Assembly (NCBI RefSeq): GCF_900465055.1
Contig: NZ_LS483250.1
Location: forward strand, 496,001-560,000
Direction: 5' to 3'
DNA: 64,000 nt
Origin: Moritella yayanosii
GTDB taxonomy: Bacteria > Pseudomonadota > Gammaproteobacteria > Enterobacterales > Moritellaceae
The translations under genes and the position numbers were made by a program. Shown here piece by piece: positions 22,851 through 28,601 of the stretch. The notes beneath the pieces are model-generated. The model was given only the letters and a program-made list of their open reading frames with translations. It was not told the origin of the DNA and ran no database searches. Every line of letters begins with the position of its first letter. The stretch's first letter is position 1.

Positions 22851-24503
22851 ATGTTTTTTGATGATTTAAGCCGGTTTAAAGATAACATTGCGGTAATTGA
22901 CGCAATTAGTGGAGATACGATCACTTATACTAATCTTAATCATCAAGTAGAGATATTATCCCTGCAACTTGGTAATAATAAAGAATTGGTATTTATTGAA
23001 TCAAAAAATACCATTATGTCGGTGGTCTGTTACTTAGCTTGTCTAAACAGTAATAAAGTCATTTATCTTGCGGATGATTTTCACAGTGATAAATCAATCC
23101 AGCTGATTAAAAATTACCAACCCAATTTGCTTATTGATGGTCTTGGTCAGGTGTCCCAGTATGCACAATGCAATTACCCGTTACATCCAAACTTAACCTT
23201 GTTGCTGTCGACATCAGGCACTACGGGTACCCCCAAATTTGTCAAGCTCAGTGCCAGTAATATCCAGTCAAACACGGAGTCGATTGTTGAATACCTGAAT
23301 TTGACTGAACATGATATTGCTTTAGCACATCTAAAATTACATTATGCGTATGGTTTATCTATTTTACACTCCCACTTACAGGCGGGTGCATGTACCGTAT
23401 TTACCGCTTATAGCGTATTAGATAGTGGATTTTGGCATGACTTAGAGACGTATTCTGCGACCAGTTTTGCCGGTGTCCCGTATACTTTTGAGGCTTTGTT
23501 AAAGACCAATTTTGATTTTAAAACATACCCGAGTTTACGTTATGTCACGCAAGCAGGTGGAAAGCTCGAAGGTTTTTTAGTCAAAAAATATGCGTTGCAA
23601 GCGCAAGCGAACGGGGTCGATTTTTTTGTCATGTATGGCCAGACCGAAGCCTCGCCGAGGATCTCTTACCTGCCGCCGCACCTGACTGTCGACTTCCCTA
23701 ATACCATCGGCCGTGCTATTCCGCAGGGGGAATTATATATTGTTGATGACGAAGGAAACGAGATTAAAACGTTAGATAAGTCTGGTGAACTGGTTTATCG
23801 CGGTGACAATGTGATGATGGGTTATGCCAAGTCAGTGACTGGTTTGGCTAACGATGAAACCCCTGAGATGTTACTTACGGGTGATATTGCTTGTCGTACA
23901 CATCATGATCTTTTTTACTTAGTCGGCCGAACCAAACGGTTTGTTAAATTATTTGGATTGCGGATAAATCTTGATGATGTGCAAAGTTTTGTTAAAAGTC
24001 ATTATCCACAAAGTGCAGTAGCAGGTAATGATAATGCTATTATTATCGCCTTGGAATTAAGCCATGATGATGTGGATACAACGCACTTATTGACACTATT
24101 AAGCGACAACTATTCATTACCGCGTGATAAATTTATCATCAACATAGTTAATGCTATACCCTTACTATCTAATGGAAAATATGACTTTAAGGCGATTATA
24201 AATCATGCCTATAAAAAACCGTCGGTTGGATTTTTTAAGCGTACGTTATGCTCTATTTCAAGTATTTTAGAATTAGATGAGAAAGAGTGGGAGAGTATTA
24301 GCCACCTATTCATTGATGCGTTAGATTTAGCCGAGTTATCCCCCGATGAAAATTTCCACAGTTTAAATGCTGATTCATTGTCTTTTGTTTATTTATCAGT
24401 AGAACTAGAGCACTGCTTAAGAAACGAATTGCCCAAGCATTGGCAGCAATGCAGTGTTGCAGAATTAGACCAAATTTATGCAAGCATACGGTTTAATGGA
24501 TAG
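22851..24503 (+). CDS. Adenylation (AMP-binding) protein with fused C-terminal carrier domain
   Basis: 550 residues, GAGGG 5 bases before the ATG. An adenylate-forming domain shows all main core motifs: STSGTTGTPK (120-129), YGQTE, LLTGDIA, VGRTKRFVKLFGLRI and the catalytic-lysine motif NGKYD (Lys about 443). The last 70 residues look like a small acyl-carrier domain, with LNADSLSF placing a candidate phosphopantetheine serine at about 509. The protein could therefore activate a carboxylic or amino acid and load it onto itself. There is no condensation or thioesterase domain. With the upstream membrane acyltransferase it forms a compact unit reminiscent in logic of DltA/DltC or AlmE/AlmF systems, though not the same gene set. 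Substrate specificity cannot be read. Confidence 0.75.
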   Translation: MFFDDLSRFKDNIAVIDAISGDTITYTNLNHQVEILSLQLGNNKELVFIESKNTIMSVVCYLACLNSNKVIYLADDFHSDKSIQLIKNYQPNLLIDGLGQVSQYAQCNYPLHPNLTLLLSTSGTTGTPKFVKLSASNIQSNTESIVEYLNLTEHDIALAHLKLHYAYGLSILHSHLQAGACTVFTAYSVLDSGFWHDLETYSATSFAGVPYTFEALLKTNFDFKTYPSLRYVTQAGGKLEGFLVKKYALQAQANGVDFFVMYGQTEASPRISYLPPHLTVDFPNTIGRAIPQGELYIVDDEGNEIKTLDKSGELVYRGDNVMMGYAKSVTGLANDETPEMLLTGDIACRTHHDLFYLVGRTKRFVKLFGLRINLDDVQSFVKSHYPQSAVAGNDNAIIIALELSHDDVDTTHLLTLLSDNYSLPRDKFIINIVNAIPLLSNGKYDFKAIINHAYKKPSVGFFKRTLCSISSILELDEKEWESISHLFIDALDLAELSPDENFHSLNADSLSFVYLSVELEHCLRNELPKHWQQCSVAELDQIYASIRFNG

Positions 24504-24657
24504 ACTGGTTAGGTTACATAAATAGAAAGTTTACGCTTACTTACATAGATATTCATTCCCTTCTAGCCATCATTATTGTTGCCGAAAGGTTGATCTAAGG
24601 TTAAGGTAAGGTTTAACTCTCGTTAAATGCACCCCTATGGGGTTATATCTGCTCCCA

Positions 24658-24698
24658 TTGATTTAGATCAATTGTTTAGATTTACACTGCGCTAGTAT
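24658..24698 (+). promoter_or_regulatory. FNR box and probable promoter of the DUF1538/PII operon
   Basis: TTGAT-TTAG-ATCAA (24658-24671) is a perfect match to the FNR consensus TTGAT-N4-ATCAA. A possible -10 element TAGTAT lies at 24693-24698; if transcription starts near 24705, the box centre would sit about 41 bases upstream, the class II activator position. CRP can bind related sites, but the TTGAT half-sites favour FNR. Confidence 0.7.
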
Positions 24699-24726
24699 CC
24701 GAGTGATTAATCTAATCAAGGAGGCT

Positions 24727-25467
24727 ATGTTGGTTAACACGTTTAAAACCCTACTTAAATCTATGCTGGGAAGTATCAGGGATCTTGCTCCTATCATTCT
24801 GGTGATTTTATTCTTTCAGTTAGTGGTTATTCAGCAACCGCTACCGAATGTCGGCCAACTTCTTATTGGCGTACTGTTTGTATTATTAGGACTCACCTTC
24901 TTTATTCATGGCCTTGAACAAGGCTTATTTCCCATTGGCGAATCTATGGCTCATGCGTTTGCGCGTAAGGGCAGTGTTGGTTGGCTGTTAACTTTTGCAT
25001 TTTGTCTTGGTTTTGGTACCACGGTGGCGGAACCGGCATTAATTGCCGTTGCAGCAGAGGCTGCGAGGGTTGCAGCCAGTGGTGATCTTATCGGCTCGAC
25101 ACAAACGGCAATTGATGAATATGCCCAAGGCTTAAGAATGAGTGTGGCATTGAGTGTTGGGATTGCGATTGCCATTGGTGTGCTACGTATTATCAAAGGC
25201 TGGCCACTGCAGTGGTTCATTATTGGTGGTTATATATTGGTGGTGATCATGACGATGTTTGCACCCGCTGAGATTATTGGTATTGCTTATGATTCGGGCG
25301 GTGTCACGACATCAACAATCACAGTGCCACTTGTCACCGCGCTAGGTGTGGGACTTGCATCTTCGATTAAAGGTCGAAATCCGATGATTGATGGTTTTGG
25401 TCTTATCGCGTTAGCATCGCTTAACCCGATTATCTTTGTAATGGCTTATGGAATGGTGATGCTATGA
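24727..25467 (+). CDS. DUF1538 integral membrane protein (first copy)
   Basis: About 246 residues from the ATG at 24727, next to a strong AAGGAGG; the TTG one codon later is also possible because of tight spacing. Six to seven hydrophobic segments. Family-type motifs shared with the next gene are LRDLAPI-like N-terminus, [46 protein letters not shown] and [16 protein letters not shown]. The conserved acidic residues (AEPALIA, YDSGG, DGFG) lie within or next to membrane helices, as expected of an ion- or solute-conducting protein. Function is not established to my knowledge. Its stop overlaps the next start by 4 bases (ATGA), and the two copies probably form a heterodimer. Confidence 0.8.
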
Positions 25468-26273
25468 CCGTTGTCGATATGTTAAATCAAATTGGCGCGA
25501 CAATCGTGACGACGTTTCGTGATGTATTGCCGATTGCCGCGATTTTATTTGGTTTCCAGTTTGCTGTGATTCGCAAACCGTTACCTAATTTAGGCCGAGT
25601 ATTAATGGGTTTCTTGTGGGTATTACTTGGCTTGTCACTGTTTTTGATTGGATTGGAGTGGGCGTTATTTCCGCTTGGGCGCTTAATGGCACAACAACTT
25701 ACCGACCCGGCTTTTCTTGCGAGTGTCAACAATGTCGAAACCGTTACTGGCAGCGTACGTGAGCTGGTTTGGACTGATTATTACTGGGTATATCTATTTG
25801 CATTCTTAATCGGTTTTGCTACTACGATTGCGGAACCATCATTGATTGCGGTTGCGCTCAAAGCGAATGAAGTTTCCGGCGGTGCCATTGGTGTTTGGGG
25901 TTTACGTTTATCTGTTGCATTGGGTGTGGCGATTGGTATCTCGCTCGGTTGCTATCGCATTGTTGTCGGCGACCCGATTCATTGGTACATCATGACGGGT
26001 TATGTGGTTGTGGTGTTACAAACACTGGTAGCACCAAAACTGATTATCCCATTGGCTTATGATTCAGGTGGCGTAACGACGTCGACGGTAACCGTACCGT
26101 TAGTTGCTGCACTCGGACTCGGATTAGCAGAAACAGTGCCGGGGCGTAACCCGATAATTGATGGTTTTGGTCTGATTGCGTTTGCGAGTTTGTTTCCGAT
26201 CATGTCGGTAATGGCTTATGCACAAATATCGCAGTGGATCAGTGCTCGTGACAAAAATGTCGCTTCAAACTAA
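25464..26273 (+). CDS. DUF1538 integral membrane protein (second copy)
   Basis: 269 residues, overlapping the first copy by 4 bases. It repeats the same motif order: [62 protein letters not shown] and [16 protein letters not shown]. It has an extra loop of about 30 residues after the third hydrophobic segment. The paired arrangement of two half-proteins resembles transporters built from two related subunits (inference). The downstream PII-like and CBS genes suggest that its activity is gated by nucleotide or nitrogen/carbon signals. Confidence 0.8.
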
Positions 26274-26370
26274 TTAGCGAATGGTCACGAGTCATTACCG
26301 TTTCTATTACAAGAACCGTCTCTATTTCAAGAAAAAGTACAGTTAAAATTATGAATTGTTGGAGAATAAA

Positions 26371-26721
26371 ATGCATTTTAAATTAATCGTCGCCTTTGTC
26401 GATGCTGGTATTACAGACAGTATCATGGATGCTGCTCGCAGTGCGGGTGCTACTGGTGCCACTATTATTAATAATGCGAGAGGTGAAGGCCTTAAGCAAT
26501 CGAAAACCTTTTTTGGTTTAACCCTAGAAACGCAGCGTGATGTTTTATTATTTATTGTTGAAGAACATTTAAGCCGACATATTTTAGAAGAAATCAATAA
26601 AGTCGGTCAATTTGATGAAAAGCCGGGGTCTGGTATTGCGGTTCAAATTGACGTGGAAGATGCGGTCGGTGTGAATCACCAAATTAGTCAATTAACGAAA
26701 ACTGTGGAGAATGAACTGTGA
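26371..26721 (+). CDS. PII-like signalling protein
   Basis: 116 residues from the ATG at 26371 with GGAG 6 bases upstream. It has the small ferredoxin-like PII fold pattern: MHFKLIVAFVD, DAARSAGATGATIINNARG (the B-loop region of PII proteins) and a C-terminal strand with PGSGIAVQIDVEDAVGV. The uridylylated tyrosine and normal T-loop of GlnB/GlnK are missing; the loop region reads GLKQSKTFFGLTLETQ. It is therefore a divergent PII relative that probably binds a nucleotide and controls a membrane partner, as GlnK does with AmtB and SbtB with SbtA. The partner here is most likely the DUF1538 pair encoded just upstream. Confidence 0.8.
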   Translation: MHFKLIVAFVDAGITDSIMDAARSAGATGATIINNARGEGLKQSKTFFGLTLETQRDVLLFIVEEHLSRHILEEINKVGQFDEKPGSGIAVQIDVEDAVGVNHQISQLTKTVENEL

Positions 26722-27113
26722 CCAAAAATCTAATTAAAGCTAATGCTGTTATGACGCAAAATTATATTTGTATGGACGGTATGCAGACCATTCGTGAAGC
26801 GATTGATGCTATGAAACAGAGTGCTTCGAAAGTGATCATTGTGAATAAGCGTGACCAACATGATGCTTACGGTATTTTGGTATTATCAGACATCGCTAAG
26901 CAAGTATTAGCCAAAGATCGTTCACCTGACCGTGTTAACATCTATGAAGTCATGGCAAAACCAATCGTATCGGTACCACCAGAAATGGATATTCGTTACT
27001 GTGCACGTTTATTTGAGCGCTTTGGTTTGTCCTATGCGCCAGTGATCGAAAATGAAGATATTTTAGGTTTGATTGGTTATAGCGAGCTGGTTTTACACGA
27101 GTTAGATAAATAG
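26718..27113 (+). CDS. CBS-domain pair protein
   Basis: 131 residues from a GTG that overlaps the PII-like stop codon (GTGA). Two CBS motifs: residues about 8-65 (ANAVMTQNYICMDGMQTIRE, then YGILVLSDIAKQV) and about 75-130 (VMAKPIVSVPPEMDIRYCAR, then ILGLIGYSELVLHEL). CBS pairs bind adenosine nucleotides and act as energy sensors. Being stand-alone and translationally coupled to a PII-like protein and two DUF1538 proteins, it is probably the second regulatory subunit of that complex. A terminator follows. Confidence 0.85.
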   Translation: MTKNLIKANAVMTQNYICMDGMQTIREAIDAMKQSASKVIIVNKRDQHDAYGILVLSDIAKQVLAKDRSPDRVNIYEVMAKPIVSVPPEMDIRYCARLFERFGLSYAPVIENEDILGLIGYSELVLHELDK

Positions 27114-27147
27114 AGAAGCTATTTTAATATTTGTGACAGATACAGAA

Positions 27148-27191
27148 ATGGCGGTTATGTTCTATTGTAATAATAGTGACATAGCCGCCAT
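27148..27191. terminator. Strong hairpin between convergent CBS and symporter genes
   Basis: ATGGCGG-T-TATGT pairs with ACATA-G-CCGCCAT, a 13-bp stem including one G-T pair. It sits between the convergent ends of the CBS gene and the NSS symporter. T-runs are weak on both sides, so it may terminate with help or stabilise 3' ends. Confidence 0.6.
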
Positions 27192-27266
27192 GTTGTTATC
27201 TTAAAACCGTTCTACATTATATATACCGATACGATACTATGCTATCTGTACTTATTCTACGACCTC

Positions 27267-28601
27267 TTAAGAGATCAGAACTAGGATGATCAACGCAGGG
27301 CATACAACACGTACATACCAAGGCCAAATCTTCCAGAATAAACTATCTTCAATCTCTGGGTTACCTTGTTTGATCTCTGTAAGAAGTTGGTCACGACGCC
27401 ATACCCAACCCACTAATAATGCAAATATCAGTGCAAGAATTGGTTGTGCATACACCGTCGTTGCTGTGATCACCAAGCCGAATAAATCAGCGTAGTTGAA
27501 GATGATCACGGCGGATACTAGTGTAATAATACCGCCAATCCACCATACCACTGTACTACGGTCTTTATTCAATTCTTCCGTGGCACAAGATACAGGTACT
27601 TCTAACATCGAGATTGATGAGGTAAGTGCAGCAATAAGCATTAACACAAAGAACAAGATGCTGATAACAATACCCATGGTGCCCATCGTATCAAACATCG
27701 CAGGTAGTACCGTGAACACTAACGTATCTGAACTCAGTAGTGCACCAGCTGCGTCGTAAATTTCAACACCGTTTTTCTGTGCCACGAACATCGCGGGTAA
27801 AATCAGTAGTCCAGCGCCAAATGCAACACCTGTGTCAAGTAGTGCTACTTGTGCGGCAGTTTTAGGAATATTGGTGTCTTTGCTTAAGTATGAACCGTAT
27901 ACCATCATTGCACATACGCCTAATGATAGTGAGAAGAATGCTTGACCCATCGCACTGATCACTAAGTCTGAACTTAGATGGGAAAAGTCTGGTACTAGGT
28001 ACATCTCAAGCCCTTCACTGGCACCGTCTAAGGTCAGGATATAGACGGTCAGCAAAGCAAATAAGATGAACAGCACTGGCATTAAACGCGACGACCAACG
28101 TTCGATACCGTCTGTAACGCCACTTTTTACAACGCGAACTGTCATTATCATGAAGATAACCATCATCACTAAGTTACGCTCAGTGCCAAAGGTATTAACC
28201 CATTCGGCTGCAGCATCAAGACCGATAAGTGCAAACAATGATGACAGTAATGAACCTAATAACCAACCGGCAACAATCGCGTAAAAGCTTAAGATCATTG
28301 ATACCGCAACCATACCTGCAATACCTAAACCCGCCGCCGCCATTTTTTGTTTTGGCCAAATTGATTGAATTGACTTGATTGGATTAGCTTGACCGTAACG
28401 ACCAATGGTTAGCTCAGCCACTAATAAAGGGTAGGCAAGAATAAACACCATGAATAAGTAAACAAGTAAAAAGACTGCGCCGCCATTACTCGCTGCTTGT
28501 GTAGGGAACCCCCAAATATTACCGACACCGACAGCAGAACCTGCTGCGGCCATGAGGAAGCCGAATCGAGATGAAAATTGTGCTCTTGAACCTGTTGCCA
28601 T
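27267..28601 (-). CDS. Sodium-dependent transporter, NSS (SNF) family
   Basis: 444 residues, about 11 membrane helices, typical of bacterial NSS symporters such as MhsT and TnaT (LeuT-like fold). The N-terminus holds the signature FSSRFGFLMAAAGSAVGVGN followed by IWGFPTQAASNGGAVF, the unwound helix 1 that binds sodium and substrate. Later features are QAFFSLSLGVCAMMVYGSYL (helix 6) and the final helix ending near LALIFALLVGWVW. It imports an amino acid or related solute with sodium. Substrate unknown. It lies between the PII/CBS operon and the leucine dehydrogenase-bkd operon, so branched-chain amino acid uptake is possible but unproven. Confidence 0.9.
   Translation of the reverse strand: MATGSRAQFSSRFGFLMAAAGSAVGVGNIWGFPTQAASNGGAVFLLVYLFMVFILAYPLLVAELTIGRYGQANPIKSIQSIWPKQKMAAAGLGIAGMVAVSMILSFYAIVAGWLLGSLLSSLFALIGLDAAAEWVNTFGTERNLVMMVIFMIMTVRVVKSGVTDGIERWSSRLMPVLFILFALLTVYILTLDGASEGLEMYLVPDFSHLSSDLVISAMGQAFFSLSLGVCAMMVYGSYLSKDTNIPKTAAQVALLDTGVAFGAGLLILPAMFVAQKNGVEIYDAAGALLSSDTLVFTVLPAMFDTMGTMGIVISILFFVLMLIAALTSSISMLEVPVSCATEELNKDRSTVVWWIGGIITLVSAVIIFNYADLFGLVITATTVYAQPILALIFALLVGWVWRRDQLLTEIKQGNPEIEDSLFWKIWPWYVRVVCPALIILVLIS

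Follow-up and report, generated by a model that had tools for sequence, protein, structure and literature searches.

A predicted UmpAB-type antiporter with a dedicated PII-like partner in Moritella yayanosii

The stretch of DNA considered here, referred to as the window, comprises 64,000 nucleotides of Moritella yayanosii (NCBI RefSeq assembly GCF_900465055.1, contig NZ_LS483250.1, positions 496,001 to 560,000 of the forward strand), and between its positions 24658 and 27113 a Pfam search located four genes, all on the plus strand, that encode in order two DUF1538 proteins, a P-II domain protein and a CBS-domain protein. Judged by sequence relationships and by analogy with transporters under PII control, this operon probably specifies a UmpAB-type cation/proton antiporter gated by a dedicated, adenylate-sensing PII-like protein. 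Direct control of transporters by PII proteins is well known. Unchecked exchange of Na+ or K+ for H+ would deplete K+ or dissipate the proton gradient, and probably the more dangerously so when oxygen is absent. If true, the proposal would extend PII control to a cation/proton antiporter, and hence to pH and salt homeostasis. The coupling of the DUF1538 pair to the PII-like protein, first suggested in an original prediction made from the DNA alone, is borne out by co-occurrence across genomes, by adjacency at almost all loci compared, and by natural fusions of the three proteins. The fusion of exchanger and switch in relatives suggests that UmpAB-type exchangers may be regulated in a manner not found described. 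Both the PII partnership and the opposed orientation of UmpAB appear undescribed in the searchable literature; a link between PII and DUF1538 was not found in open-access articles (preprints and subscription journals lay outside the search), and in the available part of PMC7221264 both terms are present, but PII is merely part of a printed motif.

Both membrane proteins match the Pfam family DUF1538 (PF07556) far above its gathering score of 22.6, at 236.4 and 222 bits. The NCBIfam models tell the two apart, with the first protein scoring 379.8 bits against UmpA and 203.6 against UmpB, and the second 353.1 bits against UmpB and 203.1 against UmpA. Because these scores lie under the curated cut-offs of 490 (UmpA) and 500 (UmpB), the proteins are named UmpA-like and UmpB-like, and their genes are called umpA and umpB for brevity. 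UmpAB of Halomonas zhaodongensis was described in 2017 as a heterodimeric Na+(Li+,K+)/H+ antiporter with an optimum at pH 9, with antiport of Na+, Li+ and K+ reported in everted membrane vesicles together with K0.5 values (Meng et al., main text of PMC5484666). The original prediction had called the DUF1538 pair uncharacterised, a view that we abandoned because UmpAB is published and the NCBIfam models carry its name. By homology the window pair belongs with a characterised transporter, and the transporter type is already known. Like its Halomonas counterpart it is an overlapping DUF1538 gene pair with a clear A/B assignment and seven predicted transmembrane segments per protein; it differs in scoring below the NF041627 and NF041628 cut-offs. 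The terms P-II, PII, CBS, topology and antiparallel are all absent from the main text of that paper. One alternative, which we consider unlikely, keeps PII as the regulator of UmpAB and supposes that the natural substrate is bicarbonate, ammonium or another metabolite instead of Na+ or K+, with Escherichia coli KNabc being relieved indirectly. Against it stand the vesicle measurements with their K0.5 values, the proposal that UmpAB homologues are marine adaptations of cable bacteria (available portions of PMC10030654 and PMC12093952), and the inclusion of DUF1538 among the Pfam families of a model of growth pH (available portion of PMC13255231).

Among 59 related genomes, including that of the window, DUF1538 is present in 25, and a PII-like profile (A5), some of whose member proteins come from genomes in the search, finds matches in the same 25 and in none of the 34 that lack DUF1538. 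The weakest of these 25 matches (E 4.3e-11) is the fused PII domain of genome G037. On a wider scale, a sample of 398 genomes of the phylum contains 126 with DUF1538, mostly in two or four copies, and 129 in which the PII profile matches at E <= 1e-8; 120 genomes carry both, six DUF1538 only and nine PII only. The six genomes with DUF1538 only are 56-89% complete; seven of the nine with PII only are at least 95% complete, and four of the nine (family f62) have weak matches between 1e-8 and 1e-10. A genome of the same genus (G003) that is listed as 100% complete has neither a DUF1538 nor a PII-like gene, which suggests that the genes of the set come and go together.

DUF1538 genes standing without PII neighbours in most genomes, the outcome that the original prediction had named as contrary to it, were not what was found: of 60 loci hand-picked from the score-sorted matches listed, two of them from one genome (G164), 59 have a PII gene behind umpB. 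Because the match lists from which they were chosen are sorted by score and incomplete, divergent types of DUF1538 are under-represented among the 60. A further 18 stretches were centred on PII matches, and so examine whether DUF1538 lies beside PII and not the reverse. In nine of them a DUF1538 gene lies directly upstream; in eight of these nine (L195-L200, L206 and L207) it is a divergent DUF1538 fusion of 567-601 residues, succeeded by either one PII gene or two, and in the ninth (L208) a shorter one near a contig end. At four of these loci (L195, L198, L206 and L207) a divergent fusion of about 590 residues is followed by two consecutive PII-like genes, one of them a weak match (23-32 bits), and such pairs possibly form a heteromeric PII regulator.

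The most direct form of coupling is covalent. In genome G037, UmpA, UmpB and PII form one protein of 642 residues, and when this protein was used as a query against named genomes, 79 of the best 80 of 559 relatives had the order UmpA-UmpB-PII in a single open frame, with the 80th ending at a contig edge. By label these best 80 are mostly Campylobacterota (Sulfurimonas, Sulfuricurvum, Arcobacter and kin) and five are gammaproteobacteria; most are metagenome-assembled, and single labels may be wrong. The fusions are thus widespread, and no frequency is given because the query favours fusions. UmpA-UmpB fusions with a separate PII gene are also found (L070, L081, L082, L083 and L090). Phylogenetically, the fused A halves cluster together on the UmpA side of a tree (support 0.975) and the fused B halves on its UmpB side (0.939), and for this reason the fusion may have arisen once. 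In the divergent fusions the two halves, A and B, are closest to one another (0.994), apart from core UmpA and UmpB; opposed halves could have arisen there by another, independent duplication, or the grouping could be a long-branch artefact. In the triple fusions the stoichiometry of UmpA, UmpB and PII is fixed at 1:1:1; these proteins are also convenient targets for structural work.

AlphaFold2 gave a good model of the UmpA-like protein of the window (predicted local distance difference test, pLDDT, 87.4; predicted template modelling score, pTM, 0.81) and a fair model of a fusion (pLDDT 80.0, pTM 0.67), with seven spans, of which the third and sixth are interrupted at the conserved motifs TTxAEP and YDxGGVTTST; the main text of Meng et al. 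likewise predicts seven transmembrane segments for each protein (PMC5484666). Lysine and arginine residues were counted in the eight non-membrane segments, in separate pairs scoring above 250 bits and in fusions scoring above 240 bits per half, with four of the 79 triple fusions omitted as incomplete, leaving 75. In the 56 separate UmpA genes these residues are concentrated in the N-terminus and loops 2, 4 and 6 (mean of 9.2, against 3.1 in the other segments), and in UmpB they are concentrated in the opposite set (10.4 against 4.1). The sign of the bias in both proteins is the same in 56/56, 6/6 and 75/75 rows and in 9/9 divergent fusions, so that each half has the opposed positive-inside bias in all 146 rows, which are related to one another and count one gene twice (L064 and L115). 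In 14 further settings, which moved the span borders by at most 4 residues and made the spans wider or narrower by 2, the sign held in 141-146 of 146 rows for UmpA and 130-146 of 146 for UmpB; the worst setting had six UmpB rows reversed and ten tied.

Given seven helices in each protein and the positive-inside rule, the reversed bias implies that UmpA should be N-in/C-out and UmpB N-out/C-in, together forming an antiparallel heterodimer. This is a sharp prediction of how the two proteins are placed in the membrane, and would account for the requirement for both. The linker between the halves of the 75 triple fusions is acidic with no clear membrane span, which fits an extracellular link, with PII then following the cytoplasmic end of UmpB. 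An antiparallel orientation is not stated in the portions of the DUF1538 and UmpAB literature examined, where no topology experiment was found either. In opposite-orientation homologous pairs with two-domain fused versions the system resembles the DUF606 and SMR proteins, from which it differs in having seven helices per half, compared with about four in the examples of the available part of a review that there makes no mention of DUF1538 (PMC3962082), and in having a dedicated PII regulator. The two DUF1538 subunits might instead be parallel, with the lysine and arginine bias marking functional surfaces and not orientation, as could be argued from the arginines of loops 4 and 6 (R153 and R216), which both proteins retain, on what would be different sides of the membrane in the antiparallel arrangement. 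We find this decidedly unlikely, given that the charge reversal holds in every row for each protein, and nearly so with moved borders, and that opposite orientation requires no additional helix in the fusion linker and puts the fused PII in the cytoplasm.

The PII-like protein scores 33.4 bits against the Pfam P-II threshold of 25, and its profile matches PII proteins of the PDB (best E 5.1e-5); a PII fold is also matched by the AlphaFold2 model of a fused relative, as distinct from the PII protein of the window itself. By alignment its T-loop is short (KTFFGL, in the region GEGLKQSKTFFGLTLETQRD) and contains no tyrosine, unlike the long T-loop of GlnB/GlnK with its modified Tyr51. The gene adjoins that of a transporter, to which it is fused in relatives, and by analogy with SbtB and similar CPII proteins adenylate binding and regulation of that transporter are putative. 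Unlike SbtA-SbtB and AmtB-GlnK, the present system combines a transporter of another family, a cation/proton exchanger, with a PII protein that has a short tyrosine-free T-loop and is often fused to the transporter.

Taken together, UmpA and UmpB would be homologous seven-helix proteins inserted in opposite directions as one antiparallel transport unit, and the PII-like protein would sit at its cytoplasmic face by the C-terminus of UmpB, opening or closing the antiporter according to the adenine nucleotide bound, much as SbtB acts on SbtA and GlnK on AmtB. Antiporter activity would then be set by the energy state of the cell. Inhibition by PII is a guess from GlnK and SbtB, and PII may activate instead. 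A fuller model, which we offer tentatively and think somewhat less probable than its negation, holds UmpAB-PII to be a new class of nucleotide-gated cation/proton antiporters in which antiparallel heterodimers of seven-helix halves are arranged three-fold under a PII trimer and an adenylate-dependent insertion of TFFGL from the cytoplasm closes the path; the class would have originated in steps, with a duplication that reversed the orientation of one copy, the joining of the two halves and lastly the addition of PII to the chain, and would in some lineages be switched on by FNR and tuned by a CBS sensor.

Several points weigh against the proposal of a PII-gated antiporter. The window proteins fall short of the curated NCBIfam equivalog thresholds, and antiport itself is known from one published characterisation, in E. 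coli KNabc and without a PII-like gene. The contact between PII and UmpAB is one that we infer, and the single-chain model of a fusion has a pTM of 0.67. In classical PII proteins such as GlnB, which bind ATP and 2-oxoglutarate, phosphate is held by the basic residues Lys90, Arg101 and Arg103; their equivalents appear not to be retained in the alignment to the PDB profile, which makes the adenine nucleotide a tentative ligand. Furthermore, at L105 umpAB has no adjoining PII gene, the PII-like gene of the same genome lying elsewhere (L205), and at L082 the second PII gene precedes, and does not follow, the second umpAB pair. Nine of the 18 stretches centred on PII have a PII-like gene with no adjoining DUF1538 gene, and in two of these (L209 and L210) a CBS gene follows PII; the PII subfamily is therefore tied to DUF1538 closely, not absolutely. 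The suggestion that the target of PII and CBS lies elsewhere, in transcription or another enzyme for instance, and that the two are merely co-expressed with umpAB could draw on such relatives, on the two with a CBS gene and on the frequent lack of CBS from ump clusters, and is very improbable in view of the covalent UmpA-UmpB-PII fusions, the close co-occurrence, and the adjacency of PII genes to both core and divergent DUF1538 types.

The PII-like relatives that have no neighbouring DUF1538 gene (L201-L205 and L209-L212) may have another target. An SH3-like membrane-anchored protein adjoins the PII-like gene at L205 and L212, and argB-like genes, named by eye, lie nearby at L202 and L205.

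The original prediction placed a perfect FNR box ahead of the operon, and the box is indeed there, as the single perfect one in the window. With the -10 hexamer and transcription start given in Table 1, its centre would lie at about -41, the class II position that had been claimed. The umpA promoter is not among the predictions of a sigma-70 scan, and has no clear -35 element of its own. Genome-wide there are 29 perfect FNR sites, compared with 4 matches to the reversed pattern. A gene for an FNR-like protein, whose N-terminal cluster is CQNCSISQLC, is also present. Within the genus the box is found at 10 of 10 loci (seven perfect, three with one change in the last base). A score of at least 9 of 10 is reached at nine of 25 loci from other families of the order (L055, L056, L060, L065, L067, L073, L074, L076 and L078), where 0-4% of 200 single-base shuffles per upstream stretch attain the scores found, and at only one of 35 loci outside the order. 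Because of this last count, FNR control of the ump operon is, as read from the sites, a feature of the lineage and not of the system. The anaerobic activation that had been predicted is thus upheld in part, by the box conserved in the genus and the FNR-like protein, and confined to the lineage; in this genus FNR would raise expression of the umpAB operon at low oxygen. A perfect FNR box also lies 17 bases upstream of the start of the fnr-like gene (L213:981-994), which suggests that this gene may be autoregulated. In the window as a whole there are 12 FNR-like sites with at most one mismatch, compared with a shuffle mean of 4.47 and a largest shuffled count of 10.

The closest solved relative of the CBS protein is CBS-CP12 (5nmu, E 6.6e-24, residues 6-125), described in the available part of PMC9406205 as an AMP binder. 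The window protein differs from this cyanobacterial protein in its length of 131 residues and its partner, and leaves no room for a CP12 tail because it ends after the CBS pair. The original prediction had counted CBS in the set, and the gene is present here and within the ump cluster at 43 of the 60 chosen loci, so that this much stands. No ump-type CBS gene was found near the best 80 of 559 fusion-query loci, some of whose stretches are short (67 of the 80 have at least 1500 bases behind the gene); one of them, L174, has a single weak CBS match on the opposite strand. CBS was accordingly rejected as a core component and is an accessory to the ump system, where it would serve as an optional second adenylate sensor that tunes UmpAB.

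The organisation of the operon agrees with what had been described, with all four genes present and 4-base overlaps at two of the three junctions, between umpA and umpB (25464-25467) and between the PII and CBS genes (26718-26721). The end of umpB and the ATG of the PII gene are separated by 97 bases, in which an inverted repeat was looked for and none found.

Table 1. Features of the ump operon and its flanks (window coordinates)
Feature	Position	Strand	Remarks
FNR box TTGATTTAGATCAA	24658..24671	+	centre 24664.5; sole perfect match in the window
putative -10 element TAGTAT	24693..24698	+	invariant in genus alignment; probable transcription start ~24705
ribosome-binding site AAGGAGG	24718..24724	+	invariant in genus alignment, ten loci
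umpA-like gene (DUF1538), TTG start	24730..25467	+	PF07556 E 2.6e-70; predicted 7 transmembrane helices, N-in/C-out
umpB-like gene (DUF1538)	25464..26273	+	PF07556 E 6.8e-66; predicted 7 transmembrane helices, N-out/C-in
PII-like gene, 116 aa, ATG start	26371..26721	+	Pfam P-II E 6.1e-8
tandem CBS-domain gene, 131 aa	26718..27113	+	Pfam CBS E 9.2e-16, two stretches
terminator-like hairpin	27138..27201	+	between the operon and a convergent SNF transporter gene

The start of umpA was assigned to the TTG codon because this codon and its ribosome-binding site are unchanged across the ten loci of the genus alignment and the upstream ATG and GTG are not kept: L010 has ACG in place of the ATG at 24727, and the GTG at 24703, considered as a start for the first gene, was dropped on finding that it is not conserved at all ten. 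A consensus scan of 24500-27300 returned six terminator-like sites, compared with 2.9 expected, one at 24639-24655, just upstream of the FNR box, and the other five within genes. The hairpin that follows the operon is strong, with arms of 23 nucleotides that are 78% complementary and a folding energy of -30.4 kcal/mol (z -5.84).
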